Assembly (NCBI GenBank): GCA_002690655.1
Contig: NZFL01000025.1
Span: forward strand, 19,989-83,988
Source of the DNA: Pedosphaera sp.
Lineage (GTDB): Bacteria > Verrucomicrobiota > Verrucomicrobiia > Limisphaerales > AAA164-E04
Length of the DNA: 64,000 nt
Direction of reading: 5' to 3'
Part shown: piece after piece, positions 25,116 to 52,417 of the stretch
Numbering within the stretch: position 1 is the stretch's first letter
Layout: every line of letters begins with the position of its first letter
Program-made: the position numbers and the translations under genes
Notes under the pieces: generated by a model
The model's input: only the letters and a program-made list of their open reading frames with translations
Told to the model about the DNA's origin: nothing
Database searches by the model: none

Positions 25116-25154
25116 TTTTCTTTTAAGGCAGGGCTCATTTCATAGCATGCAACC

Positions 25155-26510
25155 ATGCCTAAACAAGTTTGCTCACCTTTGAATCGTCGTCAATTCCTTC
25201 GACAAAGTATTGCGCTTTCTGCCGCAGGTCTTGTGGTTCCTTTGATTGCGAAAGGGCAATCGGGAAATACCTCTCCATCGAATCGATTGAACATCGGAGT
25301 GATTGGTATGGGGGGTAGGGGGATTACTCTCATGCAATCCTTTTTGAGGCAAGCAGACGTTCAGGTTACCGCTGTCTGTGATGTGGATCTGGAGCACTAC
25401 CGATCCAATGCCTGGGGTAAAGGCCGGGTATTTGGTCTGAATGCGGCCAGACGTGCTGTGGATCAATACTACGGAGACAAACAGAAATCCGGGAATTTCA
25501 AGGGCTGTCATGCGGACAAGGATTTTCGTGTTCTATGTGCTCGTCAGGATGTGGATGCCATTGTGGTCGCTTCGCCTGATCATTGGCATTACCACCAGGT
25601 CATGGAAGCACTCAAGCACGGGAAAGACGTTTATTGCGAAAAGCCGGTTACTCATACTTTCATGGAAGGAAAAATGATTTACCGCGAAGTGTTGAGACGA
25701 AAGGCCATTTTTCAAACCGGATCACAACAGAGATCAACAGGAAATTTTCATCGTGCCGTTGAGCTGGTCCGTAACGGGCACTTAGGTTCGATCAAACGTG
25801 TTGAGGTCGGGCTGCCTGCGGGCTACAAAGAAGCAAGTATTCCCGCTGTGACCGAACCCATCCCTGAGAGTTTGGATTACGATTTCTGGTCTGGCCCAGC
25901 GCCATTGCTTCCTTACATGCGGGCACGTCATCATCAATTATGGCGAGGACATCTGGCTTATGGTGGCGGCAACATCATGGACTGGATTGGTCATCATAAC
26001 GATATTGCACATTGGGGTGCAGGAATGGATGATTCAGGCCCTATTGAAGTTGAAGCGGTCGGATGGACCGAATCCAGTACTCCGGCCTATGACGCACCTG
26101 TGGAATTCGAGATACAATGCCTTTACCCAGGCCAGATAGAGTGGTTGATCGGCTCAAGATTTCAAATGGGAACCAAGTGGATTGGCGAGAACGGATGGAT
26201 TTATGTCAATCGAGGCAAGTTAGAGGCATCTGATTCACGGTGGGTGGCCAAGGATTTTAATCCCGGCCCCGCAAAGGTATATCAATCAAGTAATCACATC
26301 CGTAATTTCATTGAAGGTGTGGCGCAGCGCAAGGCATGCATCGCCCCGGCGGAGACGGGTCATCGATCCATTTCGCCCGGTCATTTGGGATATGCATCTC
26401 ACCAGCTGGGGCGTAAACTAAAATACGATGCGCGCGTCGAGAGGGTCTTGGATGATCCTGAGGCGAATGCCTTGTTGGATAGGAGTTACCGGAAACCCTG
26501 GAAAATCTAG
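25155..26510 (+). CDS. Gfo/Idh/MocA family oxidoreductase with Tat-like signal
   Basis: 451 aa; NRRQFLRQSIALSAAGLVVP twin-Arg signal, NIGVIGMGGRGI Rossmann, DAIVVASPDHWHYHQVMEALKHGKDVYCEKPVTHTFMEG, GGGNIMDWIGHHNDIAHW. Confidence 0.95.
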   Translation: MPKQVCSPLNRRQFLRQSIALSAAGLVVPLIAKGQSGNTSPSNRLNIGVIGMGGRGITLMQSFLRQADVQVTAVCDVDLEHYRSNAWGKGRVFGLNAARRAVDQYYGDKQKSGNFKGCHADKDFRVLCARQDVDAIVVASPDHWHYHQVMEALKHGKDVYCEKPVTHTFMEGKMIYREVLRRKAIFQTGSQQRSTGNFHRAVELVRNGHLGSIKRVEVGLPAGYKEASIPAVTEPIPESLDYDFWSGPAPLLPYMRARHHQLWRGHLAYGGGNIMDWIGHHNDIAHWGAGMDDSGPIEVEAVGWTESSTPAYDAPVEFEIQCLYPGQIEWLIGSRFQMGTKWIGENGWIYVNRGKLEASDSRWVAKDFNPGPAKVYQSSNHIRNFIEGVAQRKACIAPAETGHRSISPGHLGYASHQLGRKLKYDARVERVLDDPEANALLDRSYRKPWKI

Positions 26511-26571
26511 CTCCTTGACTGCGAAACGTGGATAGCCCCCCCTGTGCCAAGAACAGTTTTGATATACAGTT

Positions 26572-27738
26572 TTGTCTGATTCCGTGACATCTTTTCAAAG
26601 ATCGATTGCCAGCTACGAGGCACAATTCGGATCGAAACCCAAGTGGGTAGCTCATGCTCCGGGCCGGGTTAATCTCATTGGAGAGCATATTGATTATAAC
26701 GATGGATTCGTATTGCCTGCTGCCATTGATCGTCGCTTGAGTATCGCGGCCTCTCCGGTGAATCATCCGGAAATCCTGATCTATTCTGAGCAGGAAAAGC
26801 AACAGGTGCATTTTTCTTTGGATGCTCCGCTCCTTCCTTCCGGAAAATGGACGGATTATGTGATAGGTGTCGTAGAATACTGGAGACGCCTTGAAACGAG
26901 ACCAGTAGGACTGAAATTGGCGATTGCATCAGATGTTCCATATGGCAGCGGATTGAGCAGCAGCGCTGCTTTGGAAATGGCGTTTGCCACGTTAATTGGG
27001 GAAGTTTGGGGCCTTGAATTGGATCCTGTGGCGAAAGCCTTGAAGTGTCAGCAAGTTGAAAGTGATTTTGTAGGGATGCCTTGCGGCATCATGGATCAGT
27101 TTGTCGTCGGCCTGGCCAGGAAAGATTATTTTCTGAAAATCGACTGCCAATCAAATACGCATGAATTCATCAAAGCAGGCGAGCAATTTCCGGCGCTATT
27201 GATCATCAATTCCAACGTGAAACATGCGCTGACGGATGGAGGATATGCATCTCGCAGGGCACAATGTGAATCTGCACTTTTCAAGCTGGGCAGCGCATCC
27301 TGGAGATCTGTTTCCATGGAGCAATTATCGGGATCCGCAGGCAAGTTAGATGAAGTGGAATTACGGCGTGGAAGACACGTGATTTCTGAAATGCATCGGA
27401 CACTGGAAGCATGCGAGCGAATTCAGGCAAGTGACTATCAGTCATTGGGGGAATTACTTTATCAAAGTCATTTCTCACTGCGCGATGATTTCGAAGTTTC
27501 CTGCCCTGAATTGGATTGGATTGTCAATCGGATGCAAAGTCTAGGAGGTCGTGAAGGTGTTTATGGTTGTCGTATCACAGGTGGGGGTTTCGGTGGTTGT
27601 GCCGTGAGTTTGGTCGACCCTGAAGCAGTGAAAAGGGTCATCCAAATCATTGCCCATGATTATCTTGAGGCATTTGGTGTTTCTGCAGGCTTTTTTCTCA
27701 CGCAACCTTCTGCTGGTTGTGCATTGAGTAAATTGTAG
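26572..27738 (+). CDS. galK: Galactokinase (TTG start in the supplied ORF)
   Basis: 388 aa; APGRVNLIGEHIDYNDGFVLPAAIDR signature, SDVPYGSGLSSSAALEMA ATP motif, GCRITGGGFGGCAVSLV. Confidence 0.95.
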   Translation: MSDSVTSFQRSIASYEAQFGSKPKWVAHAPGRVNLIGEHIDYNDGFVLPAAIDRRLSIAASPVNHPEILIYSEQEKQQVHFSLDAPLLPSGKWTDYVIGVVEYWRRLETRPVGLKLAIASDVPYGSGLSSSAALEMAFATLIGEVWGLELDPVAKALKCQQVESDFVGMPCGIMDQFVVGLARKDYFLKIDCQSNTHEFIKAGEQFPALLIINSNVKHALTDGGYASRRAQCESALFKLGSASWRSVSMEQLSGSAGKLDEVELRRGRHVISEMHRTLEACERIQASDYQSLGELLYQSHFSLRDDFEVSCPELDWIVNRMQSLGGREGVYGCRITGGGFGGCAVSLVDPEAVKRVIQIIAHDYLEAFGVSAGFFLTQPSAGCALSKL

Positions 27739-27740
27739 TC

Positions 27741-29735
27741 TTATTCACCCAGTAACTGCAGAAGAGCGGCATCTTTTTCCGGGCCTTCCAAAAAATCCAA
27801 TGCTCTGCGGTAGCGAGTTTTTTCTGACGCATCGATTGACGGGTCCTTGATGAATAGAACCAGTTTTGCTGGTGTGAACTTGCTTCGGCTTCTCCATATA
27901 ATATCTCGTCCTGCTGGGGTATCCCAATCATCGTTCACCAGGTTCATCCAAGCCTCAAAAAAGACGTCTTCATTGCCTTGAGCCCCGATACCCAGAGCTT
28001 CCAGATAGAACCGGTCCTTGCCGTCGTATTGCATGGCGATTGTTGCCCATAATTCAGGAGCAAGAGTGGATTTTGAGTGATTCAGTGCAATGGCGCACTC
28101 TCGCCGCACCGCAGGAGATGAGTCTCTGACCGCGCGTTTAATTAAATCAATAACACGCATTTTTTGCTCGCGAGCTATTCTTATGGCAGTGGCTCGAACG
28201 GACGCATTTTCATCGCTCATTGCTTCGATCAAATAAGGATTTGACTCATATTTGAGGCGCCCCAGTAAGTGAAGTGCCCGCGCTCTGAAATGAGGTGTGG
28301 TGCTGCGCCAAAGTGCGAGTAGTTCTGGTATGGCTTTATTACCCATTTCCTTCAAGCGCCTCCAAGCGGAATATCTCGTTGAAGCATTTGGAGATTTCAA
28401 CGCCTGAACGGCCCTTTTTCCTGAATCTAGGGATGCTTGCAGGATGGTATAATTTGTTTTCTCAAGAGGTGCGATGCGATAGATGCGTCCACTCATTGAA
28501 TCCAGTTGCTGGTCTGTCATCAGGTTTTCCGCGCTTGTGGCATCGTTCCAATCAGCAATCATCAGCGATCCGTCTGGTGCAGTGCCTACATCACAGGGGC
28601 GAAACCATGGATGCTTGGACGATAAGATATTCTGAATGACAGTTTTTTCTGCATCGCCGATCTTTTCTGTTAATAATCCGTGGACCGCTTGCTCCTGTGA
28701 GTCGCAATAGATGATTTGGTTCTGGAATTGAGAGGGTAACAAAGTTCCCTCATAGACAGTGATGCCTTTTGGTGCTCCTTCGCCGATCTTCCAAAGAGCT
28801 GGTATCACACCGGGGTCATGCTCGTGCCAATGCCTCAGAGGGATTTCCTTCGCCATCTTAAGACGGTTCTCAATCCAGCTGGCTCCTGTCAGCTCATCCA
28901 GATACCCAAAATTACCACATTCAAAAACCTCGTTGATCCTAGCTGCCGGGGCTCCCTGGTCAGCTTGATCCGATTGCCATACCGCTCCAAAAGAATCCAC
29001 CGTCAGCTCGAATGGATTTCTGAAATTATGCCCGATAACTTCAAACTTGCTTCCGTCCATGCGGCAGCGGAATGCCATTCCTCCCCAGTATGGGTTTCCA
29101 TCGGCCCTGACGGTGCGCCCCATCAGGTCGGTTACCGGGCTTCCGTTGGCATGAGAAATTTGTGAACCCTGGTTTCCAAAGTTGAAATAGAGATTACCAC
29201 CCGGACCAATGACAGGTCCATGCACGCCCTGGTCATGGTCAACGCCTCCAATGCCCGTGAATAAAACCTCCTTCTTGTCAGCCTTATCGTCGCCATCCGT
29301 ATCAGTTAAAACGATTATATCAGGTGAGCATGCCACGAAAATTCGATTCTCAAGCACGCAAATACCCTGAGCAGAATTAATGTCATTGCCTTGATAAAAA
29401 ACCGTGCTTTTATCGGCTTCACCATTCTGATCGTTATCTTCGAGGATCAGGATTCGGTCCCCGTCGGAACGCAATTTACCCCATGCCTGCCATTGGCGGT
29501 AATTGACTCCCTCCGTCACCCAGACTCTTCCCCTGGGGTCGATATCCAGGCTGGTTGGATTCAACACCATGGGCTCAGAGGCAAATAATTGAACCTCCAA
29601 ACCTTCAGCAGTTTGCATACGTTTTAATTGCGCTTTCGCAGATTCGGAGCCCACTCCAGCTGGACTTTGTGCCCATGCAGAAACGAGGGTCATCCAAGCC
29701 AGTGACGATATTAAGAAATGAGAAGTGACATACAT
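27741..29735 (-). CDS. PVC-type 'membrane-bound dehydrogenase' beta-propeller with HEAT-like repeats
   Basis: 664 aa; N-terminal signal, EGLEVQLFASEPMVLNPTSLDIDPRGRVWVTEGVNYR, ILILEDNDQNGEADKSTVFYQG, DGSLMIADWNDA, then HEAT-like helices. No CxxCH seen. Confidence 0.85.
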   Translation of the reverse strand: MYVTSHFLISSLAWMTLVSAWAQSPAGVGSESAKAQLKRMQTAEGLEVQLFASEPMVLNPTSLDIDPRGRVWVTEGVNYRQWQAWGKLRSDGDRILILEDNDQNGEADKSTVFYQGNDINSAQGICVLENRIFVACSPDIIVLTDTDGDDKADKKEVLFTGIGGVDHDQGVHGPVIGPGGNLYFNFGNQGSQISHANGSPVTDLMGRTVRADGNPYWGGMAFRCRMDGSKFEVIGHNFRNPFELTVDSFGAVWQSDQADQGAPAARINEVFECGNFGYLDELTGASWIENRLKMAKEIPLRHWHEHDPGVIPALWKIGEGAPKGITVYEGTLLPSQFQNQIIYCDSQEQAVHGLLTEKIGDAEKTVIQNILSSKHPWFRPCDVGTAPDGSLMIADWNDATSAENLMTDQQLDSMSGRIYRIAPLEKTNYTILQASLDSGKRAVQALKSPNASTRYSAWRRLKEMGNKAIPELLALWRSTTPHFRARALHLLGRLKYESNPYLIEAMSDENASVRATAIRIAREQKMRVIDLIKRAVRDSSPAVRRECAIALNHSKSTLAPELWATIAMQYDGKDRFYLEALGIGAQGNEDVFFEAWMNLVNDDWDTPAGRDIIWRSRSKFTPAKLVLFIKDPSIDASEKTRYRRALDFLEGPEKDAALLQLLGE

Positions 29736-29799
29736 ACAAAAGAATGGGGCTCACGTTTGACATGAGCCCTCACAATCTTTTCCTGATAACAGGAACCAG

Positions 29800-30678
29800 T
29801 TATTTACGTTTGCCTTTAGGATCCAGATTCTTGCTCAGATCTTCCTCAGAAATAAAAGAAACGACACCTTGAGGAGGGACTTCGACCTTGGCGATCCACA
29901 GCAAGGCATTAAGCACCACTTTTCGGAAATCATCGTTGCCCCAATTCACGTGATGATGTCCACCAGTGAATCCAAAGCCTCTCCCCCCATCCGGACGCTC
30001 GCGTACCCACATCATGGTTTCTTTGCGTCCCTTGTCTTCTTTTATGTGCGGGTAGGGTCCCTTGGGCCAGACGTAGGGACCATCACGCACATCATCTGCC
30101 GGTGAGGCGGTCAAAATAGGAGTAATCCCGTCCATATCGGAGCGCCATCGCATGTTGAAATACCACTCATCTTTTACTTTGAAAGGTTTCACACCTCGAG
30201 TGACTGGGTGCTGTGGGAAAGACAGGAAATCCGGAGACCACATTGGATTGACGCTGAACTGATGTTCGTAATACCCGCCGATCCATCGATGCATGGCTTC
30301 TCCAGGGTCACCTTTTGGGACTTCCACCCCATAATGGGCGCATCCAATTCCCACACCTTTTTCTGCAAGGCGGTCGATCAATTTCATGCGATCCTCCTGT
30401 ATAGCGGGGTGTCCATTCCCTCCGTCTGCGTAAATCAGAATGGCGTCAGCAGAGTCCAGCGTTGAAATGTCTTTCGGCCACCCCATCTTGTGAACTTCCA
30501 CTTGGACACCTGGCATGTTTTCAAGACATTTCTGAAGTAGCATGCAGCCTGCATTAAATTCGTGATCTCCCGGGCCGTGACTTGGCCTGCCGGCCAGCAG
30601 AACGATTTTTTTATCCTCGAGTGCAAGCAGGTTTGCTGACAAAAGGACAGTGAATACGAGTGTCAATAATCGTTTCAT
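29800..30678 (-). CDS. ThuA domain-containing secreted protein (paralogue 1)
   Basis: 292 aa; signal peptide, KIVLLAGRPSHGPGDHEFNAGCMLL, GIGCAHYGVEVPKG, HPVTRGVKPFKVKDEWYFNMRW and GFGFTGGHHHVNWGNDDFRKVVLNALLWIAK. Confidence 0.9.
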   Translation of the reverse strand: MKRLLTLVFTVLLSANLLALEDKKIVLLAGRPSHGPGDHEFNAGCMLLQKCLENMPGVQVEVHKMGWPKDISTLDSADAILIYADGGNGHPAIQEDRMKLIDRLAEKGVGIGCAHYGVEVPKGDPGEAMHRWIGGYYEHQFSVNPMWSPDFLSFPQHPVTRGVKPFKVKDEWYFNMRWRSDMDGITPILTASPADDVRDGPYVWPKGPYPHIKEDKGRKETMMWVRERPDGGRGFGFTGGHHHVNWGNDDFRKVVLNALLWIAKVEVPPQGVVSFISEEDLSKNLDPKGKRK

Positions 30679-30684
30679 AGGGAC

Positions 30685-31650
30685 TTACTTTGCGCCTTTG
30701 ACAGGGCTGATGAAAGATTGGTTTTGGCGGGCATCACGAAGGATTTCCAGCGGGTTTCTTCCACGCTTTTGATCAAGATTGGTGAGTATTTGCTCGTCGC
30801 TCAATGGGCAATCGATCCCATTTTCAGGAACCTCAGCCTTTGCCAGCCACAGCATGGCGTTCAAGATCACTTTTCTGAAATCAGGATTCCGCCAGTTGAG
30901 ATGGTTGTGAAGGCCGGTGAACCCGAAGCCTCGTCCACCATTGGAGCGTTCGTATGCCCAGGCGACATGCTGCGGAAGGCCTGCGGCCACCGCCTTGCGT
31001 ACCTCTGGGTTCCCACTGTGCGGGCCATCTTTTCGCTCCATCGTTTTTTCAGGAGCCACAGCCGAAAGAATAGGCGTAACGCCCTTCATGTTATCTGGGA
31101 ATCGCATATGGAAATACCACTCATCATTGACCGCAAACGGTTGGACGCCGTTGGTAATCGGATGATCCGGAAAGCTTGTGAATTCAGCAGTCCAGTGAGG
31201 GTTGACCGACCAGTTTGTTTCAAAATATCCGCCCATCCATTCCAGGAACTCAGATCCTCCCCTATCCTTGGGAACTTCGACGCCATAATGAAGACACCCA
31301 AATCCTGCACCGCCACCCATCACCTTGCTTAATTGTGCTAATCTGCCTTCCTGAATGGCTAAATGGTTCCCCCCGCCCGTGCAGAAAACAACAACGGCAT
31401 CCGCACCTTCCAGCGCATTGGGATCCTCAGGCCAGCCACCTGTGTAAACATCAACTTCAACGCCGGAGACGTCTTGCAGGCAGCGTTCTATGAGCATACA
31501 GCCTGCCTTGTGTTCATGCTGAAGAACACCATGACTTGGCGGGCCTGCTATCAAGACAATGCGTTTGGTATCCGCCTTGAGATTTGTCGTTAAACTACAA
31601 ACCCAAAGTAGGGCAAGAATGCATGGTTTTATCAATTGATTGCATTTCAT
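30685..31650 (-). CDS. ThuA domain-containing secreted protein (paralogue 2)
   Basis: 321 aa; RIVLIAGPPSHGVLQHEHKAGCMLIERCL, GFGCLHYGVEVPK, HPITNGVQPFAVNDEWYFHMRF and GFGFTGLHNHLNWRNPDFRKVILNAMLWLAKAEVP. Confidence 0.9.
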   Translation of the reverse strand: MKCNQLIKPCILALLWVCSLTTNLKADTKRIVLIAGPPSHGVLQHEHKAGCMLIERCLQDVSGVEVDVYTGGWPEDPNALEGADAVVVFCTGGGNHLAIQEGRLAQLSKVMGGGAGFGCLHYGVEVPKDRGGSEFLEWMGGYFETNWSVNPHWTAEFTSFPDHPITNGVQPFAVNDEWYFHMRFPDNMKGVTPILSAVAPEKTMERKDGPHSGNPEVRKAVAAGLPQHVAWAYERSNGGRGFGFTGLHNHLNWRNPDFRKVILNAMLWLAKAEVPENGIDCPLSDEQILTNLDQKRGRNPLEILRDARQNQSFISPVKGAK

Positions 31651-31667
31651 GATTCAATTCAGGGTGC

Positions 31668-32675
31668 TTAGTTCTTGCGTGTAGCTGACCAGTTGAGAAG
31701 CATCTCATCATTTAATGTGACTTCTCCCGCAAGGGCACCATTCGGCTTCATTTTTCCTCTATAGCTAGCGGTGACTGTTTGCCCTTCGTATTCACCGGAT
31801 ATGTTAAACTCAACAACATCTCCAGATACGGTCCCTTTCACAGGGCTTTTACCCAGTAGCCCTTCATATTGACCTAGGAGCTGGTTGCCCTGTTGTTGAA
31901 GGTGAAACACAGGAGTACCGACCCCCTGGTCAGAGAAAACTTCCATATTCCAAACGCCACCGATCTGGATGGGTTTTAGTTTCTTGATTTTGATATCGCG
32001 AAACTGGACTGTCATTGGAGGTCCTGCGTGCAGTTGCAGTGCCAGGATCCCTGAGTCAACTTGCTTCTCTTTATCTTCATCGAGAACAATAGCTGTGACG
32101 CGACCGTTGATGACGTGGACGAAACGATTTTCTACAGCAATGATTTTGTAATCATTCCAATCCTCATTCTTGATCTGGGATTGAATATCCTCAGATGCTC
32201 CCAACGAGCCAAGAACCTCCACTTTATGTTTGTCCCCATTGCGTGCAATACTAGTCATCTGACCCCGTTGTGCCAAGATGCCCCGACCTCTCTCTTCATA
32301 TAAGATGCCTGAGAAGGTTTTGCCTGCTTCGAAATCTCCCTGATAACCTCCAACGACCCAATTGCCAAGTTCCTTGCTCCGATACTGAATGCCTGAATTG
32401 CCATTGATGATTTTATACTGCAAGCGCAATTCAAAATCATCCACCTTACCGTTACGCCAGATAATGAAGGTATTGCCTTTGGTTGGGTTTTCCTTGGTGG
32501 TCTGACCTGTAATCGCACCATCGCGAACAGACCAGAATTTTGGGTTTCCATCCCAGCCGTCCAGGTTTTTACCGTTGAAGAGCGAAGTAAAACCCTCGTT
32601 GTCTGCAGCACTTGCTTGCCAGATTAAACCCGCACACAGGGCCGTTGCCAGAATGGATCGCATGAATTGTTTCAT
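31668..32675 (-). CDS. DUF1080 (3-keto-disaccharide hydrolase-like) secreted protein
   Basis: 335 aa; GFTSLFNGKNLDGWDGNPKFWSVRDGAITGQT, NSGIQYRSKE and ILALQLHAGPPMTVQFRDIKIKKL. Extra C-terminal ~100-aa domain. Confidence 0.9.
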   Translation of the reverse strand: MKQFMRSILATALCAGLIWQASAADNEGFTSLFNGKNLDGWDGNPKFWSVRDGAITGQTTKENPTKGNTFIIWRNGKVDDFELRLQYKIINGNSGIQYRSKELGNWVVGGYQGDFEAGKTFSGILYEERGRGILAQRGQMTSIARNGDKHKVEVLGSLGASEDIQSQIKNEDWNDYKIIAVENRFVHVINGRVTAIVLDEDKEKQVDSGILALQLHAGPPMTVQFRDIKIKKLKPIQIGGVWNMEVFSDQGVGTPVFHLQQQGNQLLGQYEGLLGKSPVKGTVSGDVVEFNISGEYEGQTVTASYRGKMKPNGALAGEVTLNDEMLLNWSATRKN

Positions 32676-32732
32676 AATGGTAAAAATAAGGCCGGAAAAT
32701 CCGGCCGGTTTTTCTATTGGATGCTCTTTAAG

Positions 32733-33578
32733 TTACTTGATGTTTTTCTTCAGGAATTTGAGACCTTTCACTGCAATCTCATCCCGAGTGGGTTCCATGC
32801 GACGCCAGATAGCAGCCGCCTTTGCGATAACCTTGACGTCTGTGGTGAAGGATTCGATCACCACGTCACCCTTGTATCTGATGGATTTCAGCGCAGCAAC
32901 AATCGGTTTCCAGTCAATGTGGTCGTTGCCCGGAGTTCCACGGTCACTCCCGCAGGCATGGAAATGTCCCAGCATTTTACCGGCCTTCTTGATGGCTTTT
33001 GCTTGATTCTTCTCTTCGATGTTCATGTGGAATGTGTCGAGGTGCAATTTCAGCGCCTTGCTATCCACATCCTTGATCATTTTCAGACCTTGATCACAGG
33101 TGTTTATAAAATCTGTTTCGAAGCGATTCAAAGGTTCGAGACAGATGGTGCGGCCTCGATCCTCTGCGTATTTACTCAGGGTTTTGAGATTCTTGACCAC
33201 CGTTTTCCACTGTGCGGCATATTCCTTGGCGGGAACCGCATCGGCGCGGCCGACAGCAGAATAGACCGGGCCAATCAACGACGGGCAGTCCAGAGTGACC
33301 ATCTGGTCTATGAGAGCCTTCATGTAGGCAAGCCCTGTTTTCTGTTGTTGGGCTGTTCCTCGCAAATCGCGGTCAGGTGACATACAGGCACATACCGATC
33401 CGCAAACAAGATCGTTGCGGTCCAGTGCGGCTTTCACCCTCTCAGGATTAATGTGCGACGGATCCTCCACCGGGATTTCTATCGTATCAAAACCCCATTT
33501 TTTGAACTTGGGCAAGAGGCCAGTGCTCCGCGTGGTGAAGGGGGATGTGAACAGAAAGGTATTAATTCCAAATCTCAT
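32733..33578 (-). CDS. Sugar phosphate isomerase/epimerase (AP-endonuclease-2-like TIM barrel)
   Basis: Start proposed at MRFGINTFLFTSPFTTRS (the supplied ORF extends to 33650); FDTIEIPVEDP, LEPLNRFETDFINTCDQGLKMI, LKLHLDTFHMNIEE, HFHACGSDRGTPGNDHIDW. Confidence 0.9.
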   Translation of the reverse strand: MRFGINTFLFTSPFTTRSTGLLPKFKKWGFDTIEIPVEDPSHINPERVKAALDRNDLVCGSVCACMSPDRDLRGTAQQQKTGLAYMKALIDQMVTLDCPSLIGPVYSAVGRADAVPAKEYAAQWKTVVKNLKTLSKYAEDRGRTICLEPLNRFETDFINTCDQGLKMIKDVDSKALKLHLDTFHMNIEEKNQAKAIKKAGKMLGHFHACGSDRGTPGNDHIDWKPIVAALKSIRYKGDVVIESFTTDVKVIAKAAAIWRRMEPTRDEIAVKGLKFLKKNIK

Positions 33579-33621
33579 AGCTAAGGGTAATCTGCATTGA
33601 ATTATATTCCTGGATTGTTTC

Positions 33622-34689
33622 CTAACAAGCTTTTTGTCCAAGGGCTTCAATCATCGTTTGGATACGGTGGCTGTAGGTGTGATGCCCAAGAACGCGCTTG
33701 CGTGCCTTCATGGCGATTTCTTCGGCGCGGTATGGATCATACTTGAGGGATCGATAAACCAGTGGCACCTCATCCCAATCCCGATACACGACGAGCTCTT
33801 CGTATGGATCGAATTGGAGTTCAAGATCAGGGACCCATTTCGTGAGCATCAGGTTCTGGCAGGCTGCTACTTCAAATACCCTGAAGTTCAGTCCGTTCAG
33901 ATTCTTGGGCCTTCGAGGTAGATCCAGTACGACGGCGTATTCCTGATAAAGTCGAGTCAAGGTGTTTGAATCCAAGTTTTTGCTTTTTAACTTCGTCCAC
34001 CAATTCGTGGTTTTAGGGCCTTCCCAGATAACAGGGACTCCTCGGAGGCGTAGTCGATTGAGGGTTTTTAATCGTGACTCGGTAACGCTTCCCGCAAAGA
34101 TGATTTTACTTTCCCTTGAATCCACACCTGAAGGGGCAAACCTCCTCTCATTAACCGCGAGAGGTAAATATTTCATCTTTCTATCTTCACCTGGTCTTAC
34201 TTTCTGCAGCGATTCCTGCATGGAGGAGTCGGAATAAAAAACATGGTCAAAACATTGGATGCCCTTCCAGGAAGTTCGCCTGCAGTCACTGAACCACGCT
34301 GCCAGTGTAGCTTTTTTCTTAAGATCCCTCTGAATGGCTTTGAAGAATGCAGATGTCATTGCAAAGGGGTCAAGGAACAGAATAAGCCGTGGAGCGGCCT
34401 TGTTGACTTGATCTCGGATACGCTGGATTGCGGGCTCGTCCGGGGCAAGATTCATGTATCCATGCCGATACTCAAACCATCGTTCTTCCAGTCGTTCAGG
34501 TTCAAGTGCAGCAATGTAACATGCAGCTCCGAAGCGTTCGAACGCATCGCTCACGTCCGGAGCCCAATAATTAACCCGCGTGTCTGCAACGATAAGAACA
34601 TTCGATTCAAATCGCTTTTTTGCGACATTTTTTTTCTTGGATGGCGTGTGTTCGGAATGCATGGATGAATCGTTCAATGACTGAGACAA
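33622..34689 (-). CDS. CgeB-like glycosyltransferase family 1 protein
   Basis: 355 aa; KIIFAGSVTESRLKTLNRLRLRGVPVIWEGPK, LNGLNFRVFEVAACQNLMLTKWVPDLELQFDPYEELVVYRDWDEV, KARKRVLGHHTYSHRIQTMI. Confidence 0.75.
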   Translation of the reverse strand: MSQSLNDSSMHSEHTPSKKKNVAKKRFESNVLIVADTRVNYWAPDVSDAFERFGAACYIAALEPERLEERWFEYRHGYMNLAPDEPAIQRIRDQVNKAAPRLILFLDPFAMTSAFFKAIQRDLKKKATLAAWFSDCRRTSWKGIQCFDHVFYSDSSMQESLQKVRPGEDRKMKYLPLAVNERRFAPSGVDSRESKIIFAGSVTESRLKTLNRLRLRGVPVIWEGPKTTNWWTKLKSKNLDSNTLTRLYQEYAVVLDLPRRPKNLNGLNFRVFEVAACQNLMLTKWVPDLELQFDPYEELVVYRDWDEVPLVYRSLKYDPYRAEEIAMKARKRVLGHHTYSHRIQTMIEALGQKAC

Positions 34690-43595: not shown

Positions 43596-45998
43596 TCAAT
43601 GAATGTAGCGGAAGTCGACGCATGAAAACAGCGCATGGTAAATGCCTTCCCATGCTTTACGCTGTTGATGCTGGTTTTCGGCCTTACTCAAAAAATCCAT
43701 GGCGATCAGCTTCTCAGCTTGACTGGGTTTCCTTGAAAGCGTTGTCATGTATGCATGCAACAGTCTTTCGCCGTCTGAATAACCTTTTTTACTCAGCAAC
43801 TTGGCGGCCGCGAATTCGGCTTGGTCCATGATCCATGCGTTGTTCATGAGATACAACGATTGTGTTGGTCGAACCCCGGGTGTTCGGCGTCCTACGGTGA
43901 AACTTGGATTGGCAAAATCGAAGTTATCCAGCAATGCATTCCTCCCCTCTTCACGAAAGATCGGAATATAAACAGATCGTACGCGTGGACTGACAATGCT
44001 TTCGTAATCCAGTTTGGCATTACGAAGTGCGGAATCGGAAGACGCTGCGCCAGGCAGCATACTGGTTATGCGGCCTCCCCGGAGCTGTCCGCTTGCAATC
44101 AGTATCGAATCACGTATTGCTTCCGCAGGTAAGGTTCTTGGAATCATGCGTGAGCGCAGTGCGTTGTCAGGGTCTCTGCTCTGGTTCGCATCTGTGCCTG
44201 ATGAACTCAGACGGTAAGTGCGTGAAAGAACAAGCTCCCTCACCAGCCGTTTGGTGGACCAATTGTTCTGGATAAACTGATAGCTTAGGTAATCCAGCAA
44301 TTCCGGGTGGGTTGGGGTATCGCCTGTGGTTCCAAAATTATCCACAGACTTCACGATGCCACGACCAAAAAGGTGATGCCACACTCGATTGACATACACG
44401 CGAGGAGTGAGCGGGTTAACGGAGCTGGTTAACCATTGAGCCAGCTCGAGGCGCCCGGTTTCTCCCTCAGGGATCACTGGGCTTGACGCGTTTTTATCGA
44501 GTGCGACCTTGAGGAAACCTCGAGGTACTTTTGCTCCAAGTTGATGCACATTACCACGGACACACACTGCGTAGTCCCCTGCATCCTTCTCCACGCCGAC
44601 GGTGATTGCCTTGGGCAGGGGCGCTGGTGCGGTATCCTTTGCCTTGGCCAGTTGTTGTTCCAATGCCTTGAGTTCAGCTTTTTGATTCTCCGAAGCATCT
44701 TTGATCTTTTTTAAAACTTTGATCGAATTCCCCATTTTTTTGACCTGATTGGAGTATTCCTGATAAATCTGCTTTCGATCGAATGTTACTTCTAATTCCT
44801 GTTCCACCAACTTGGAGACATTGTCCCGGATCAGTGTGCGCGTGCTTCGGAAAATCCCCGCCAGCGCGTAGTAATCTTCTGTTGGGATCGGGTCGAATTT
44901 ATGATCATGACACCTTGCGCAACTGATGGTCATTCCCAAAAGGGAACGGCCCATCGTGTCGATCTGTTCGTCCACGGTATTCATCCGGAGTAGTTCCTTG
45001 TCCTGCAGGTCCAGATTCTTGGGGCCGATAGCGAGGTATGCGGTGGCCACTAATTGATTGTTTCGCTGCTCCCGGCTGGACCATGTCATGAGATCACCAG
45101 AGATTTGTTCGCTGATGAACAGGTCAAATGGCTTGTCCTGATTGTAAGCATCAATGACGTAGTTGCGATACCGCCAGGCGTTTGACAGAACGGAGCTGCG
45201 ACCGCCCCCGGTTGAATCGGCATATCGAGCGAGATCAAGCCAATGACGTCCCCATTTCTCTCCAAATGATTGGGATGCGAGCATTTGGTCGATAATGGAT
45301 TGATAATGTTGCTCGGATGCATCTTTCTGAAAATTTCGTATTAGGTCAGGCGAAGGGGGGAGTCCGGTAAGATCAAAACTTACCCGTCTCAGAAGTTCCG
45401 CTTCACTGGCATCCTGGGTTGGTGCCATCGAGTTTTCCTCCAGTTCAGCCATGACAAAACGATCAATCAAGTTGAAAGCCCAGCCTTCATCCGTGTTCTT
45501 GGGAGCAGGAGGGAGAGAGATTGGGCGAAAGGACCAGAATTGTCTGCCTTCATCCAGGTCAATGGCTTCGTCAGCCGATTCGGAAACATCTCCGTCTCTG
45601 GGATCCGCAGCTCCCATGCGTATCCAATGTTCGATGTGGGCTATCTTCGATGGGGGAAGCTTGCCTCTCGGCGGCATTTCCAGATCAGGATTGCTGTAAG
45701 CGATGGCTTCCAGTAGTAAGCTTTTTTCTGGCTTTCCGGGTTCGATGGCCTTTCCTGAATCGCCCCCAGATATCCAACCCTGTCTGCTATCCAATCGAAG
45801 TCCTCCCTTGATTTTTTCCGATTCTGAATGACATTCATAACAATGGTCAACAAGCAAGGGACGCACGTGCTTTTCAAAATAAGCAACGGCTTCATCTTCT
45901 CCAGCGTGAATCAAACCATAATGAGCAACCAGCATTGAGGCTGCCAGCATCCATGGCACTGGATGCGTCATTTTCATATGCCTGAGGAGTCTCATCAT
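43596..45998 (-). CDS. PSD1 / DUF1549-DUF1553 protein with N-terminal planctomycete-type cytochrome c domain
   Basis: 800 aa; VRPLLVDHCYECHSESEKIKGGLRLDSRQGWISGGDSGKAIEPGKPEKSLLLEAI (CxxCH), RRVSFDLTGLPPSPD, GRHWLDLARYADSTGG, CARCHDHKFDPIPTEDYY, RVWHHLFGRGIV. Confidence 0.95.
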   Translation of the reverse strand: MMRLLRHMKMTHPVPWMLAASMLVAHYGLIHAGEDEAVAYFEKHVRPLLVDHCYECHSESEKIKGGLRLDSRQGWISGGDSGKAIEPGKPEKSLLLEAIAYSNPDLEMPPRGKLPPSKIAHIEHWIRMGAADPRDGDVSESADEAIDLDEGRQFWSFRPISLPPAPKNTDEGWAFNLIDRFVMAELEENSMAPTQDASEAELLRRVSFDLTGLPPSPDLIRNFQKDASEQHYQSIIDQMLASQSFGEKWGRHWLDLARYADSTGGGRSSVLSNAWRYRNYVIDAYNQDKPFDLFISEQISGDLMTWSSREQRNNQLVATAYLAIGPKNLDLQDKELLRMNTVDEQIDTMGRSLLGMTISCARCHDHKFDPIPTEDYYALAGIFRSTRTLIRDNVSKLVEQELEVTFDRKQIYQEYSNQVKKMGNSIKVLKKIKDASENQKAELKALEQQLAKAKDTAPAPLPKAITVGVEKDAGDYAVCVRGNVHQLGAKVPRGFLKVALDKNASSPVIPEGETGRLELAQWLTSSVNPLTPRVYVNRVWHHLFGRGIVKSVDNFGTTGDTPTHPELLDYLSYQFIQNNWSTKRLVRELVLSRTYRLSSSGTDANQSRDPDNALRSRMIPRTLPAEAIRDSILIASGQLRGGRITSMLPGAASSDSALRNAKLDYESIVSPRVRSVYIPIFREEGRNALLDNFDFANPSFTVGRRTPGVRPTQSLYLMNNAWIMDQAEFAAAKLLSKKGYSDGERLLHAYMTTLSRKPSQAEKLIAMDFLSKAENQHQQRKAWEGIYHALFSCVDFRYIH

Positions 45999-46854: not shown

Positions 46855-49800
46855 ATGATGACCATGATTTCTAAAATGAATGCTTTACGATTGAGCCGAT
46901 TCTTTTTTTGCCGATTCGGGGTGTTTGTCACTCTTTCATTTATGTTGCCCCTCCATGGTGCTGAACCTTTGCATGTCGTCTTCATGGTGGGTGAGCAGGA
47001 ATATGAAACCGCCCGTACACTTCCTGAATTCGCAAGGCAAGAACTGACCCCCAAGGGGATTGTCAGTTCCTTTGCACATGTCTCCAGGGATGATTCGAAC
47101 CATTTTAAAGGATTGGAAGCCTTGGCTGATGCAGACGTCCTGTTCGTCAGTGTGCGGCGAAGAACGCCCCCGGAAGCTCAGATGCAATTGATTCGCACGT
47201 TCTTGAATCGGGGCGGTTCAGTTGTTGCTATACGGACATCCAGTCATGCATTCGACCGTGACCCCCCCAGTGCGGATTACGTGCGTTGGCAGTCATTTGA
47301 TCGCGATGTGCTGGGTGGACATTATGAAGGGCACTATGGAAACAAGCCACCCACCAATCCTCCTTCGAAAATTTTTTTACAGGCATCACAGAAAACACAT
47401 CCCTTGTTGAAAGGTCTTGAGCAACAATCTTTTTTATCAACCTCGCATCTTTACAAAAACCGGGAGATGTCGGCCAAAGCGACTGTCTTGATGGATGGGG
47501 TGGTTGTGGGCATGGAGGTCAGGGAACCTGTGACCTGGACGCACGAAACGTCATCAGGTGGCAGGGTGGTATACACTTCATTGGGCAACACGGGTGATTT
47601 CGGAATCCAACCTTTTCGACGTCTGCTACTGAATGCCATCCATTGGGTGGCGGGTCGTGCAGTTCCTGAGCAACTCATTCACCCAGGGCTTAAAGGAGAT
47701 TTTGATCCGAATGCTTCCCTCAATGGCTGGGTGCCGATGAATGTGCCTTCAGCATGGGAACAGCATCCAAGTGGGGCCTTTGCCGATACGGATGGTTTTG
47801 GATGGTATCGCTCTTACGTGCATGTACCGGAATCCTGGCGTGGCAGTCGTTTGCTGCTGGTGGTTGATGAGGTAAGTGACGTGGATGAAGGTTTTTTCAA
47901 CGGTATTAAAATCGGTGCCAATGGTGCCATGCCTCCTCTGTATCAAAACCCTTCAAGCAATATACGCCGCCCTTTCGTGATTGATCCGGACTGGATCCGT
48001 TATGGTGAGGACAATCTGATTGCATGGCGTGTTTATGACAAGGAAGGGCAGGGTGGGATATTGAAGGGCCCGGTGCACCTGAGCCGTCGCGATGATGCCA
48101 TTGATCTTCAGGGAGCCTGGTTGTTTCGCCCCGGAGACGCTCCCTCCTGGAGTCAGTGGGATCACGATCCTGACAGTGCTGAAGCCAAACAAGCATCTGC
48201 GCGATTCAAACAAATCGCCGGAGTTGGGTTTGCCGGTCACGCTGGGATTGTGGACGCGGACATAGGGGGAAGACAGCGTCGCATCCAGGAGGTTTACGAA
48301 AAATTCAAAGGCAATACCAATGTGCATGCCCTGACTGAAGGAAAGGGAGCTCCGCTATCTCCCGACGCAGCGCTTGAATCTCTCGAGGTAAGCGATGGTT
48401 TGAGCATCGATCTCGTTTTGTCGGAGCCTCTGGTGAAACAGCCCCTCTACATTGATTTTGATGAGCGTGGAAGGATGTGGGTGGTTCAGTATATTCAATA
48501 CCCCAATCCGGCAGGTCTTGAAGTGCTGACATGGGATAATCATTTGAGAAAAGTCTTTGACGCCGTACCTCCGCCCCCACCATTCGATCGGCCAGAGCAT
48601 CAAAAATTTGTAGGTAAAGATAAGATCACTTTGCATGAGGACACTGACGGTGATGGTGTTTTTGAGACCCATAAAACATTTCTGGATGGTCTGAACATGT
48701 GTACTTCATTGGCTTTTGATCAAGAGGGCATATGGGTCATGCATCCACCTTACCTGTTGTTTTATGCAGACCGAAATCATGATGATCAACCCGACGGTCC
48801 TCCCGAGGTGCACCTGTCAGGATTTGGTTTGGAGGATACTCATTCGATCGCCAACAGCCTGAAGTGGGGGCCTGATGGTTGGCTTTATGGTGCCACTGGA
48901 AGCACGGTCACCGCGCGCGTCAAAGTTGAGCGAGGTGAGTCAAACAAGGTATATCCTTTCTTTGGTCAAAATATCTGGAGATACCACCCTGTCACACACC
49001 ATTTTGAATTGTTCGCCGAAGGAGGGTGGAACACTTTTGGTGTGGATTTTGACAGTAAGGGGCGACTTTATTCAGGTACCAACGGGAACCTGCAGTCGGT
49101 TTATTTTGTGCAAGGCGGTTACTATCAAAAATCTTTTGGCAAGCATGGACCTCACACCAACCCCTACACCTTTGGGCATTTTTTCGGATTGCCCATTGAA
49201 GGTGAAAAAGTGCGCCTCGTGCATCAGTGGGTGCTCTATGAAAGTGGCGCCATTCCGTCGCTGGAAAATCATTTCGTTGGAAGCAACTCGCTGGCTAACA
49301 AGGTGCACGCACTGCGCGTGATGCCCGACGGCAGTACGTTCAAAACCGCCGAAATTGAATCGCCTGTAACGACTTCGGATAAATGGTTTCGGCCAGTGCA
49401 CAACGTCATAGGGCCGGACGGAGCCATCTATCTCTCTGATTGGTATGATGCTCGCATCACGCATGTGGACCCCAGAGACAATTGGGACCGTGAGCGTGGG
49501 CGTATTTATCGCTTACGTGACACGCGTCGCTCCCCCGGCTATGCCATGGACATGCATCGCAGGACAACCGAACAGCTGGTTTCATCCTTGTCGGATCAAA
49601 ATCAATGGATTCGATCCACGGCTCGTCGTTTGCTGCGCGAGAAGAAAGACCCTGCTGCGGTCGCATTGCTTCAGGAACGATTGACCAATGCGGATGGAGC
49701 GACTGCTCTGGAGGCCTTGTGGACCTTGGAGCAAATGCAGTCTCTGGGCGAATCCACGCGCCTTCTTTCACTGAACCATGCCGATCCTCACGTGCGCTTG

Positions 49801-51276
49801 TGGGGCGTTCGCTTGAGTGCGGATGTTGTGCCGCTTTTGAGTTCTGCGGTTTTTAAATCCGTCATGCATTTGGCGAAAACGGATTCAGATCCTGAAGTGG
49901 TTTCACAAATTGCAGCAAGTGCTCAACGACTCCGTCCCTCGCAAGGTTACCCCTTGGTTCAAGCGCTTTTTCAGCGCGATGAATGGTCCAGTGATCCCTA
50001 CATACCGCAGCAGATCTGGTGGGCTTTGGAGTCTCAGATTCGCCAGCAACCAGAGGGAATGCTTGCGCTGCTGGGGACTCCGGATCAGTGGCAGTTTCTT
50101 CTGCTGCGTGAAACGCTGTTGAGCCGCCTGAGCCGCAGGTTGACCTCTGAACAAGATCCGAACAGTCTGACTCTCTGTGCCCGCCTCTTGATGAAGGCAC
50201 CGGATAAGGATGCGGTTTCGTTGCTGTTGGAGGGGATGGAATCCGCGTTGCAGGGATCTCGCCTCGAGGTTTTACCGGATGCATTGGACAAGGCCCTGAA
50301 AACAGTCACGGCAAGGTTTGGGTCGGATCCTTCCTGGGTTGGGTTTGGCCTTCGAATTGATAGCCCGTCAGCTTTTGTCTCTGCCCGTGAAATGGTGGCC
50401 CACTCCCAACAGAAAGAGGAGACGCGGATCGCCATGATCAGCCGGCTCTCGGAGCTGCGCGACCAGCCATCGGTTTTCATCATGCTGCAACTCATCGGTG
50501 ATAGCCATGCTTCTGAATCACTCAAGCTCGCCGCGATGAATGGGCTGCGTCGATTTGATGATGATGCCATTGCGGAAGCCTTGCTCGATCAATTGCCAAA
50601 GCTCGAAGGAGACCTCCTTCAAACCGCATTATCCGTGATGGCCGGACGAACGGAATGGACCGTTGCGCTGTTAACCGCAGTGGATCAGGGTGCATTGGCA
50701 AGGGAAGCCATCTCATTCGATGTCTTGATTACCATGCAGCAGAGGGGGAATGAGCGGATCGGTTCTTTGATCAAGTCCAGCTGGGGTAATCTGCGTCAAC
50801 CGAAAGCTGCCATTACCACACGCATCCATGAGGTCCAGACAACCTTGAAACGTCTGGGCGGAGATGCTCGCAAGGGTAAGGAGCTTTTTGCTCAAGTCTG
50901 TGGGGCCTGCCATGTTCTGCATGGGGAGGGTCGATCCATTGGGCCGGAACTCACCGGTTATGATCGTGGTAATCTCGATTTTCTGCTGCCGGCTGTTCTG
51001 GATCCAAATCTGGCCATCCGTGAAGAATTTGAACTTGTGACCTTGGCGCTGCGCGCAGCAGAGGGGGAGCTGGAAGGGGCTCTGTTGACTGGTTTCATTT
51101 CAGGAATGGAAGCAGGGGTTCTCACTCTGACCGATCTTGCCGGTAATCTTACCCGGATCGCGGAAACCGATGTCGTCAAACGCGAGCATTCCACTGTTTC
51201 CATCATGCCTGAAGGACTTTTGGACACGATGACGGAACAGCAGGTCGCCGATCTTTTTGCGTATTTGCAAAATTAG
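46855..51276 (+). CDS. Multidomain exported protein: ThuA-like + jelly-roll sugar-binding-like + PVC dehydrogenase beta-propeller + HEAT repeats + C-terminal cytochrome c
   Basis: ATG at 46855 proposed (the supplied ORF begins at TTG 46786). LHVVFMVGEQEYETARTLPEF (ThuA-like), NGWVPMNVPSAWEQ...GFGWYRSYVHVPESWRGSRLLLVVDEVSD (GH2-like jelly roll), GLSIDLVLSEPLVKQPLYIDFDERGRMWVVQYIQYPNP (propeller), GKELFAQVCGACHVLHGEG (CxxCH, 50899-50913). Confidence 0.88.
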   Translation: MMTMISKMNALRLSRFFFCRFGVFVTLSFMLPLHGAEPLHVVFMVGEQEYETARTLPEFARQELTPKGIVSSFAHVSRDDSNHFKGLEALADADVLFVSVRRRTPPEAQMQLIRTFLNRGGSVVAIRTSSHAFDRDPPSADYVRWQSFDRDVLGGHYEGHYGNKPPTNPPSKIFLQASQKTHPLLKGLEQQSFLSTSHLYKNREMSAKATVLMDGVVVGMEVREPVTWTHETSSGGRVVYTSLGNTGDFGIQPFRRLLLNAIHWVAGRAVPEQLIHPGLKGDFDPNASLNGWVPMNVPSAWEQHPSGAFADTDGFGWYRSYVHVPESWRGSRLLLVVDEVSDVDEGFFNGIKIGANGAMPPLYQNPSSNIRRPFVIDPDWIRYGEDNLIAWRVYDKEGQGGILKGPVHLSRRDDAIDLQGAWLFRPGDAPSWSQWDHDPDSAEAKQASARFKQIAGVGFAGHAGIVDADIGGRQRRIQEVYEKFKGNTNVHALTEGKGAPLSPDAALESLEVSDGLSIDLVLSEPLVKQPLYIDFDERGRMWVVQYIQYPNPAGLEVLTWDNHLRKVFDAVPPPPPFDRPEHQKFVGKDKITLHEDTDGDGVFETHKTFLDGLNMCTSLAFDQEGIWVMHPPYLLFYADRNHDDQPDGPPEVHLSGFGLEDTHSIANSLKWGPDGWLYGATGSTVTARVKVERGESNKVYPFFGQNIWRYHPVTHHFELFAEGGWNTFGVDFDSKGRLYSGTNGNLQSVYFVQGGYYQKSFGKHGPHTNPYTFGHFFGLPIEGEKVRLVHQWVLYESGAIPSLENHFVGSNSLANKVHALRVMPDGSTFKTAEIESPVTTSDKWFRPVHNVIGPDGAIYLSDWYDARITHVDPRDNWDRERGRIYRLRDTRRSPGYAMDMHRRTTEQLVSSLSDQNQWIRSTARRLLREKKDPAAVALLQERLTNADGATALEALWTLEQMQSLGESTRLLSLNHADPHVRLWGVRLSADVVPLLSSAVFKSVMHLAKTDSDPEVVSQIAASAQRLRPSQGYPLVQALFQRDEWSSDPYIPQQIWWALESQIRQQPEGMLALLGTPDQWQFLLLRETLLSRLSRRLTSEQDPNSLTLCARLLMKAPDKDAVSLLLEGMESALQGSRLEVLPDALDKALKTVTARFGSDPSWVGFGLRIDSPSAFVSAREMVAHSQQKEETRIAMISRLSELRDQPSVFIMLQLIGDSHASESLKLAAMNGLRRFDDDAIAEALLDQLPKLEGDLLQTALSVMAGRTEWTVALLTAVDQGALAREAISFDVLITMQQRGNERIGSLIKSSWGNLRQPKAAITTRIHEVQTTLKRLGGDARKGKELFAQVCGACHVLHGEGRSIGPELTGYDRGNLDFLLPAVLDPNLAIREEFELVTLALRAAEGELEGALLTGFISGMEAGVLTLTDLAGNLTRIAETDVVKREHSTVSIMPEGLLDTMTEQQVADLFAYLQN

Positions 51277-51331: not shown

Positions 51332-52417
51332 TTGGGCATGCACCTGGCTAAATTAAGATTAAGAGATTTTCGGAATTATCGGCGATTGGACATGATGTTT
51401 GATCCCGGTTTTCACCTGTTGCTGGGTAACAATGCTCAAGGAAAAACTAATATACTTGAATCCATCTATCTACTTGCCACCTTGCGTTCTTTCCGTGGCG
51501 TTGGTGCCGCCCAAATGATCCGACATGAGCAAGCGGGATTCTTTGTCGGTGCTGAAATCGTGGGGGTTCAGTCTGATGTGATCAAGTATTACTGGTCTTT
51601 GCGTGATCGCCGCCTGACGCTCAATCAGGATCCGGTCAAGCGTCTTTCCGATTTCTTTGGAACACTTCGTTCTGTGGTTTTCTGCACTGAAGATTTGCAG
51701 CTCGTCAAGGGAGCGCCACGGATTCGTCGGCGGTTCATGGATCTTTTACTTTCTCAAACCCAGCCTGCTTATCTGGGTAATCTTCAGCAGTATGCCAAGG
51801 TATTGCGATCGAGGAATGCCATTCTGAAACAGCATCGACCCGATCAGGATGTGCTTGATTCCTTCACGAGAGAACTCGTTCATTACGGGCAAGCATTGAT
51901 TGAGGCGCGCAAACAGTTTGTGCCGCGCCTCTCCCCTCTTGCACGTCTCTCTTACCGTCGAATATCTGATGATGCCGAGGAATTCATGATGGTTTATCAC
52001 CCGACGGTGCAAGGAGATTTCAGGGAAGAGCTGGACAGAGTAAAGGTCAGGGAAAGGCAATATCGATCCACCCTGGTGGGGCCACATCGTGATGATCTTA
52101 AATTACTTCTGAATAATCAGTCTGCAGCTCAATTTGGCAGCGAAGGTCAAAAGCGTAGCTTGGCCATCTCCTTGAAAGTAGCTCAGGCTGAATACTTGAC
52201 CGGACTCTTCGGGCATCCACCTGTTTTATTGATTGATGATGTGATGGGGGAATTGGATCTAGCTCGCCGCGGTGGCTTGATGCCATTGCTTGAACGATCC
52301 CATCATGCCTCTGGTCAGGTCTTTATGACGTGTACTGAAGAAAACTGGCCCAAGGAACTTGGGAGGCGGTTGATCCGATGGAAAGTGGATCAAGGTTCCA
52401 TTCAGCACGCTGATTAA
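51332..52417 (+). CDS. recF: DNA replication and repair protein RecF
   Basis: 361 aa; LRLRDFRNYRRLDMMFDPGFHLLLGNNAQGKTNILESIYLLATLRSFR (Walker A), LVGPHRDDL, GSEGQKRSLAISLKVAQAEYL, PVLLIDDVMGELD. Confidence 0.97.
   Translation: MGMHLAKLRLRDFRNYRRLDMMFDPGFHLLLGNNAQGKTNILESIYLLATLRSFRGVGAAQMIRHEQAGFFVGAEIVGVQSDVIKYYWSLRDRRLTLNQDPVKRLSDFFGTLRSVVFCTEDLQLVKGAPRIRRRFMDLLLSQTQPAYLGNLQQYAKVLRSRNAILKQHRPDQDVLDSFTRELVHYGQALIEARKQFVPRLSPLARLSYRRISDDAEEFMMVYHPTVQGDFREELDRVKVRERQYRSTLVGPHRDDLKLLLNNQSAAQFGSEGQKRSLAISLKVAQAEYLTGLFGHPPVLLIDDVMGELDLARRGGLMPLLERSHHASGQVFMTCTEENWPKELGRRLIRWKVDQGSIQHAD

Follow-up and report, generated by a model that had tools for sequence, protein, structure and literature searches.

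The window analysed here is a 64,000-nucleotide (nt) stretch of a Pedosphaera sp. contig (NZFL01000025.1, positions 19,989 to 83,988, forward strand), and our subject is a single open reading frame (ORF) at 46855-51276 on its plus strand, which is uninterrupted and encodes one chain of 1473 amino acids (aa). A preliminary description of this DNA, made from the sequence without database searches, had proposed that the ORF joins a ThuA domain, a GH2-like jelly roll, a PVC-type beta-propeller, a HEAT-like region and a C-terminal CGACH heme motif. Hidden Markov model searches of Pfam and NCBIfam, together with AlphaFold2 and Foldseek, bore this composition out, and the ThuA and propeller assignments were both upheld. 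The fusion protein is a variant of a known, functionally unsettled family, and its architecture is common within the order. The window belongs to a 4.08-Mb draft genome of a marine Verrucomicrobia-type bacterium that is 87 % complete, the closest named relative found being Verrucomicrobia bacterium SCGC AAA164-E04 (protein identity ~95 %).

In the N-terminal part, the Pfam ThuA profile (PF06283) matched residues 73-265 (E 9.4e-18, 65.7 bits against a gathering cut-off of 33.4), and a profile search against solved ThuA structures returned 4e5v (E 4.6e-22) as well as 4jqs and 1t0b; a profile was required here, as a Protein Data Bank (PDB) search with a single ThuA sequence gave chance matches only. 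The domain that follows did not reach the Pfam cut-off for GH2_N (PF02837: E 0.02, 15.2 bits, gathering cut-off 28), and the same profile scored higher in the ortholog from Pedosphaera sp. ARS72 (E 2e-4, 21.6 bits). An AlphaFold2 model of residues 31-500 (predicted local distance difference test (pLDDT) 90.6) was matched by Foldseek to CE20 enzymes with ancillary domains (9ega, E 1.1e-10), to GH2-type glycosidases and to the ThuA structures 1t0b and 4e5v, and the modelled fold is clearly a GH2-like jelly roll, an assignment made by fold match only. Downstream, Pfam DUF7133 (residues 502-889, E 7.3e-68) and NCBIfam TIGR02604 (246.1 bits, cut-off 122.2; E 7e-73) identified the propeller, HEAT_2 matched residues 906-976 (E 7.4e-9), and TIGR02603 (105.8 bits, cut-off 68.15) and Pfam Cytochrom_C (E 3e-7) identified the heme domain. 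The curated cut-offs of both TIGR02604 and TIGR02603 are thus exceeded, placing the protein in the PVC-type heme-binding CxxCH family (Pfam DUF7133), to which Lac161_ORF7 (see below) also belongs. It shares propeller, HEAT region and heme domain with that family but adds an N-terminal variant ThuA domain and the GH2-like jelly roll, where other members carry other modules or none. The genome contains 62 TIGR02604 match segments in more than 30 open frames, and we found no settled function for the TIGR02604 family in the open literature.

Table 1. Features of the fusion ORF and of related or neighbouring genes in the window (residue numbers follow the 1473-aa chain, P0001 numbering).
Feature	Coordinates	Strand	Basis or remark
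Whole fusion ORF	46855..51276	+	1473 aa
Signal-peptide-like N-terminus (MNALRLSRFFFCRFGVFVTLSFMLPLHG)	46876..46959	+	Judged by eye from sequence; MNAL start common to the G315 split ortholog
ThuA domain (residues 38-266), variant subfamily, signature GExEY / RRR / RTxSHxF / HY	46966..47652	+	Pfam, PDB profile, conservation, AlphaFold2
GH2-N/CE20-ancillary-like beta jelly roll (residues 287-430)	47713..48144	+	Below Pfam cut-off; AlphaFold2, Foldseek
Helical linker, jelly roll to propeller	48145..48354	+	AlphaFold2 secondary structure
DUF7133/TIGR02604 beta-propeller (residues 502-889); candidate active-site residues H663, N726, R846	48358..49521	+	
HEAT-like alpha-helical repeat region (residues 900-1330; Pfam match limited to 906-976)	49552..50844	+	
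TIGR02603 cytochrome c-type heme domain (residues 1336-1472)	50860..51270	+	NCBIfam
CGACH heme-attachment motif (residues 1349-1353)	50899..50913	+	CxxCH in 66/66 relatives
Met1451, probable distal heme ligand	51205..51207	+	Invariant in 66/66
RecF-like downstream neighbour, conserved	51332..52417	+	Synteny; RecF name is a sequence reading
Unfused counterpart run: TIM barrel (AP_endonuc_2), DUF1080 3-keto-disaccharide hydrolase, two canonical ThuA, propeller + HEAT without heme	27741..33650	-	

The true start of the ORF is probably the ATG at 46876 (MNALRL...), given that the split ortholog in genome G315 likewise begins MNAL. The preliminary description had itself raised the possibility that two genes were joined by assembly, and two relatives lend something to an assembly or annotation artefact: in G315 ThuA is encoded apart, by a gene lying 23 nt upstream, and the SCGC AAA164-E04 gene is disrupted within ThuA. 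However, independent genomes carry the full-length chain at 56-97 % identity (G003, 97 %; G004, 68 %; Pedosphaera sp. ARS72, 58 %; G005, 56 %), there are many more distant fusions, and the window holds a single open frame. On account of these independent orthologs we rejected an assembly join, take the chain to be intact and consider the chance of an artefact negligible. The SCGC AAA164-E04 ortholog (L083:9932-14423) is split inside ThuA into frames of 171 and 1322 aa. In the same organism, part of the fusion gene (P0001 residues ~152-736) lies inside a free ThuA gene (L087:10185-12335, L193:2563-4713), a chimeric ORF that probably arose as a single-cell amplification chimera.

Using the propeller, HEAT and heme regions as a core query (residues 478-1472), we found the core in 113/196 genomes of the order (E ≤ 1e-100). 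The modules N-terminal to it vary: some proteins have none, others a jelly roll, ThuA or these two together, and in others again an isochorismatase-like domain precedes ThuA, in some cases with a jelly roll as well; CBM_4_9 and F5/8-C occur as further N-terminal or inserted modules of the family. The present genome encodes two more ThuA-propeller-cytochrome fusions, one with a CBM_4_9 insert (C27) and one with an F5/8-C domain (C17). Long ThuA ORFs seen in 20 relatives were fetched; all 27 that measure 850 aa or more carry the propeller and 22 a CxxCH motif (3 are cut by contig ends). In four additional frames, at first seen truncated, ThuA lies C-terminal to a propeller and a heme domain. A tree of 92 ThuA domains placed the fused ThuAs in several distinct groups and called for no fewer than 12 changes among N-fused, C-fused and free states, although the tree is a quick one with weak deep branches and leaves the exact count of independent joins unsure. 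ThuA is fused C-terminally in L172 and L175, and its relatives in L171 and L174 are separate genes ~30-45 nt downstream. The adjacent pair in G315 shows signal-like starts on both the ThuA gene and the jelly-roll gene, the jelly-roll/propeller gene there being broken by an apparent frameshift, so that this genome is to be read with care. Isochorismatase-like (cysteine hydrolase) domains front ThuA-propeller-cytochrome chains in L121, L122, L139 and L143, the longest reaching 1730 aa.

Fused and split-adjacent versions of the same gene are the evidence that a Rosetta-stone argument requires, and comparison of these genes leaves the link between ThuA and the propeller-cytochrome family well supported. 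The open literature searched yielded no account of the ThuA fusion. With ThuA fused so repeatedly, the search for a function narrows to sugar chemistry, and ThuA and propeller make a testable pair whose fused and split natural versions could be used for complementation.

The Rosetta-stone argument of the preliminary description is strengthened by the repeated joins and fused/split pairs, but ThuA is optional and most ThuAs elsewhere occur without the propeller. The ThuA domain is absent in genus g3 and in L085, L086 and L089, where the protein begins at the jelly roll, and related 1010-aa proteins likewise lack it; in L085 and L086 the gene upstream of the ThuA-less protein codes for a sigma factor rather than for a free ThuA. 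We rejected the idea that the propeller requires ThuA because of these orthologs, from which ThuA is to be read as an optional, dispensable module. In a phylum-wide draw ThuA was present in 32/59 genomes and TIGR02604 at E ≤ 1e-20 in this genome only; with no such match in the 58 other genomes drawn, the correlation of counts is uninformative.

The propeller model (pLDDT 91.8) had the soluble aldose/glucose dehydrogenases as its closest Foldseek matches (2ism, 7.6e-10; 1cru; 3das; AA12 6i1q), with propeller lactonases and lyases also among the matches; Pizza/NHL matches were dismissed as generic propeller-blade matches without kinship. Alignment with hhalign to E. coli YliI alone was weak, but a 16-protein GSDH profile gave a profile-profile probability of 98.7 % (E 4.4e-16). 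By profile and modelled fold, then, the propeller is remotely related to the pyrroloquinoline quinone (PQQ) sugar dehydrogenases, of which YliI (2g8s) and A. calcoaceticus soluble glucose dehydrogenase (sGDH, 1cru) are representatives. A pocket Asn and one Arg align with theirs (N726 with YliI N215, R846 with an Arg of the RIR motif), and a His, H663, falls within one residue of the invariant H147. Unlike them, the propeller has no PF07995 match at E ≤ 0.1 in the Pfam search, is missing two PQQ-site arginines and is fused to a cytochrome c. At the C-terminus, CxxCH with an invariant Met is the pattern that a His/Met-ligated c-type heme of class I would show, and a gene for a c-cytochrome assembly protein is present in the genome; judged by this pattern, the heme site looks real.

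The separate propeller + HEAT and two ThuA genes that the preliminary description had placed at 27.7-31.7 kb exist as described, but the propeller protein carries no CxxCH motif. The DUF1080 and TIM-barrel families encoded in the same run (Table 1) are tied to 3-keto-glycoside cleavage (PMC9007349; PMC10628242). The LacABC + DUF1080 and Gfo/TIM-barrel pathways described there combine periplasmic oxidation with DUF1080 or TIM-barrel cleavage, and the window has both of these families beside ThuA and the propeller; in those pathways, however, the dehydrogenase is not a propeller and no role of ThuA was shown (PMC9007349, PMC10628242). The neighbouring genes of the unfused run thus point to oxidation-assisted sugar cleavage as a common theme. 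Lying end to end with this run, at 23910-27738 (+), are genes for a SASA esterase, a Gfo/Idh/MocA oxidoreductase and a galactokinase.

Our preferred reading, to which we would give slightly less than an even chance, makes the fusion product a multi-domain redox protein of the PVC CxxCH family, exported to the periplasm or the cell surface, that processes carbohydrates. In this scheme, holding or preparing a glycan would fall to the jelly roll and variant ThuA domain, and oxidation or another conversion of the sugar to the central pocket of the sGDH-like propeller. The HEAT-like region would act as a spacer, and the electrons would pass to the C-terminal cytochrome c, which is of the class-I type (His/Met). 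ThuA is an accessory module that has joined the propeller-cytochrome scaffold several times, which speaks for shared substrates of ThuA proteins and propellers. We infer the carbohydrate substrate, the oxidation, the electron flow to heme and the role of ThuA from the GSDH-like propeller, the invariant heme ligands, the c-cytochrome assembly protein, the carbohydrate-type jelly roll, the CBM_4_9 and F5/8-C modules, the repeated ThuA fusion, its split or adjacent versions and the unfused run with DUF1080 and TIM barrel.

Several observations weigh against this carbohydrate-redox reading. The PQQ ligands are only partly kept, YliI R214 being replaced by W or G and one of the two C-terminal arginines being retained. 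PqqE scored below the cut-off in the window's own genome (87 % complete) and in 19/20 relatives searched, and the sole relative with PqqE above it (G018) lacks the fusion protein. At the canonical ThuA positions H50, H127, D197-E198 and H245 (P0001 numbering), the window fusion has Y, R, S-H and N instead. Lastly, Lac161_ORF7, the only relative with an assay, is described as splitting lactose and not as a dehydrogenase (PMC5342196). With ligands incomplete and PqqE lacking, we do not accept the propeller as a PQQ enzyme like sGDH, and the earlier wording of a dehydrogenase passing electrons to heme is not supported as written. The PqqE argument is softened by the finding that 18/20 relatives carry true GSDH (PF07995, PQQ-type sugar dehydrogenases; E ≤ 1e-20) despite the near-absence of PqqE, so that an external source of PQQ could still serve. 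The same contrast, GSDH in 18/20 relatives and PqqE in 1/20, raises the question of whether PQQ is scavenged or another cofactor is used.

Lac161_ORF7 (TIGR02604, HEAT_2 and cytochrome c, without ThuA), purified from E. coli, was reported to release glucose from lactose with a Km of 1.8 mM; it was made in IPTG-induced BL21(DE3), and its Km is near that of LacZ, as the authors remark (PMC5342196). This report would favour a propeller that is a non-redox glycan hydrolase, lyase or lactonase-like enzyme with the cytochrome c as a sensor, anchor or docking part, an explanation that the incomplete PQQ ligands and the Foldseek matches to propeller lactonases and lyases would also suit, and which we consider unlikely but worth weighing. 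BL21(DE3) makes no PQQ and, under such expression conditions, little c-type heme, while its own LacZ is induced and, at ~116 kDa, is similar in size to Lac161_ORF7 (109 kDa). LacZ carry-over may therefore have contaminated the preparation, and for these reasons the lactose report neither proves nor rules out a hydrolase. Further, no catalytic acids were mapped, and heme ligands invariant in 66/66 relatives would be odd for a mere anchor.

The residues of the ThuA domain bear on a further alternative. The canonical H50, H127, E198 and H245 are kept in 37-39/41 other ThuAs and the D of the D197-E198 pair in 30/41, and the free ThuAs at 29800-31650 and the C27 and C17 fusions are of this canonical type. 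The subfamily to which the ThuA of the window fusion belongs instead has E47, Y50, R101-R103, R127, H131 and Y157 invariant in 41/41 members. Compared with the ThuA family (PF06283; 1t0b, 4e5v, 4jqs), the fusion domain is alike in fold and in its profile match above cut-off and unlike in its four replaced positions; these comparisons identify it as a member of the ThuA fold in a variant subfamily with a replaced residue set, which is relevant to the annotation of 'trehalose utilisation' proteins. Since that subfamily has lost the H/H/DE/H set that the free ThuAs keep, the 'same activities' earlier ascribed to the fusion and to the genes at 27.7-31.7 kb do not hold, and the chain is not a simple repeat of those genes. 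One ThuA-like fold binds levan in a Bacteroides utilisome (PMC7618045) and another forms the iron-hydrolase domain of dimethylformamidase (PMC7686228), so either a binding or a hydrolase role could apply to the fused ThuA.

The loss of the canonical residues, the levan-binding precedent (PMC7618045) and the free swapping of N-terminal modules (ThuA, isochorismatase-like, jelly roll, F5/8-C, CBM) would agree with a chain that is mainly a glycan-binding scaffold, in which sugar binding is left to ThuA and the jelly roll, the propeller has a structural or binding part, and catalysis falls to partner proteins. We think this rather improbable: the polar set of the variant ThuA (E47, Y50, R101-R103, R127, H131) is strict in 41/41, beyond the needs of binding, and propeller H663 (57/59) and N726 (58/59) are conserved. 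A speculative extension of the carbohydrate-redox reading, which we hold to be quite unlikely, would see in the isochorismatase-ThuA-jelly roll-propeller-HEAT-cytochrome c chain a step-wise periplasmic machine, built as one polypeptide, that cleaves glycans oxidatively; its cofactor would not be PQQ, and its ThuA subfamily would have exchanged the conserved residues for a new set.

In three related genomes (family code f120), close free relatives of the variant ThuA subfamily occur at G438:C12:2275-2985, G442:C55:52390-53097 and G458:C39:119340-120044; each has one in-frame TAG, which could be a conserved break or a codon that is read through. A 567-aa ORF at L046:7236-8939 (G000 C30) carries two ThuA domains in tandem.

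Within the window, a member of another PVC cytochrome family, a PSCyt1-PSCyt2 (DUF1549)-PSD1 (DUF1553) protein at 43596-45998 (-), adjoins the fusion ORF on the opposite strand. The RecF-like gene on the other side has a homolog 3' of the fusion gene in L083, L085, L086 and L088.

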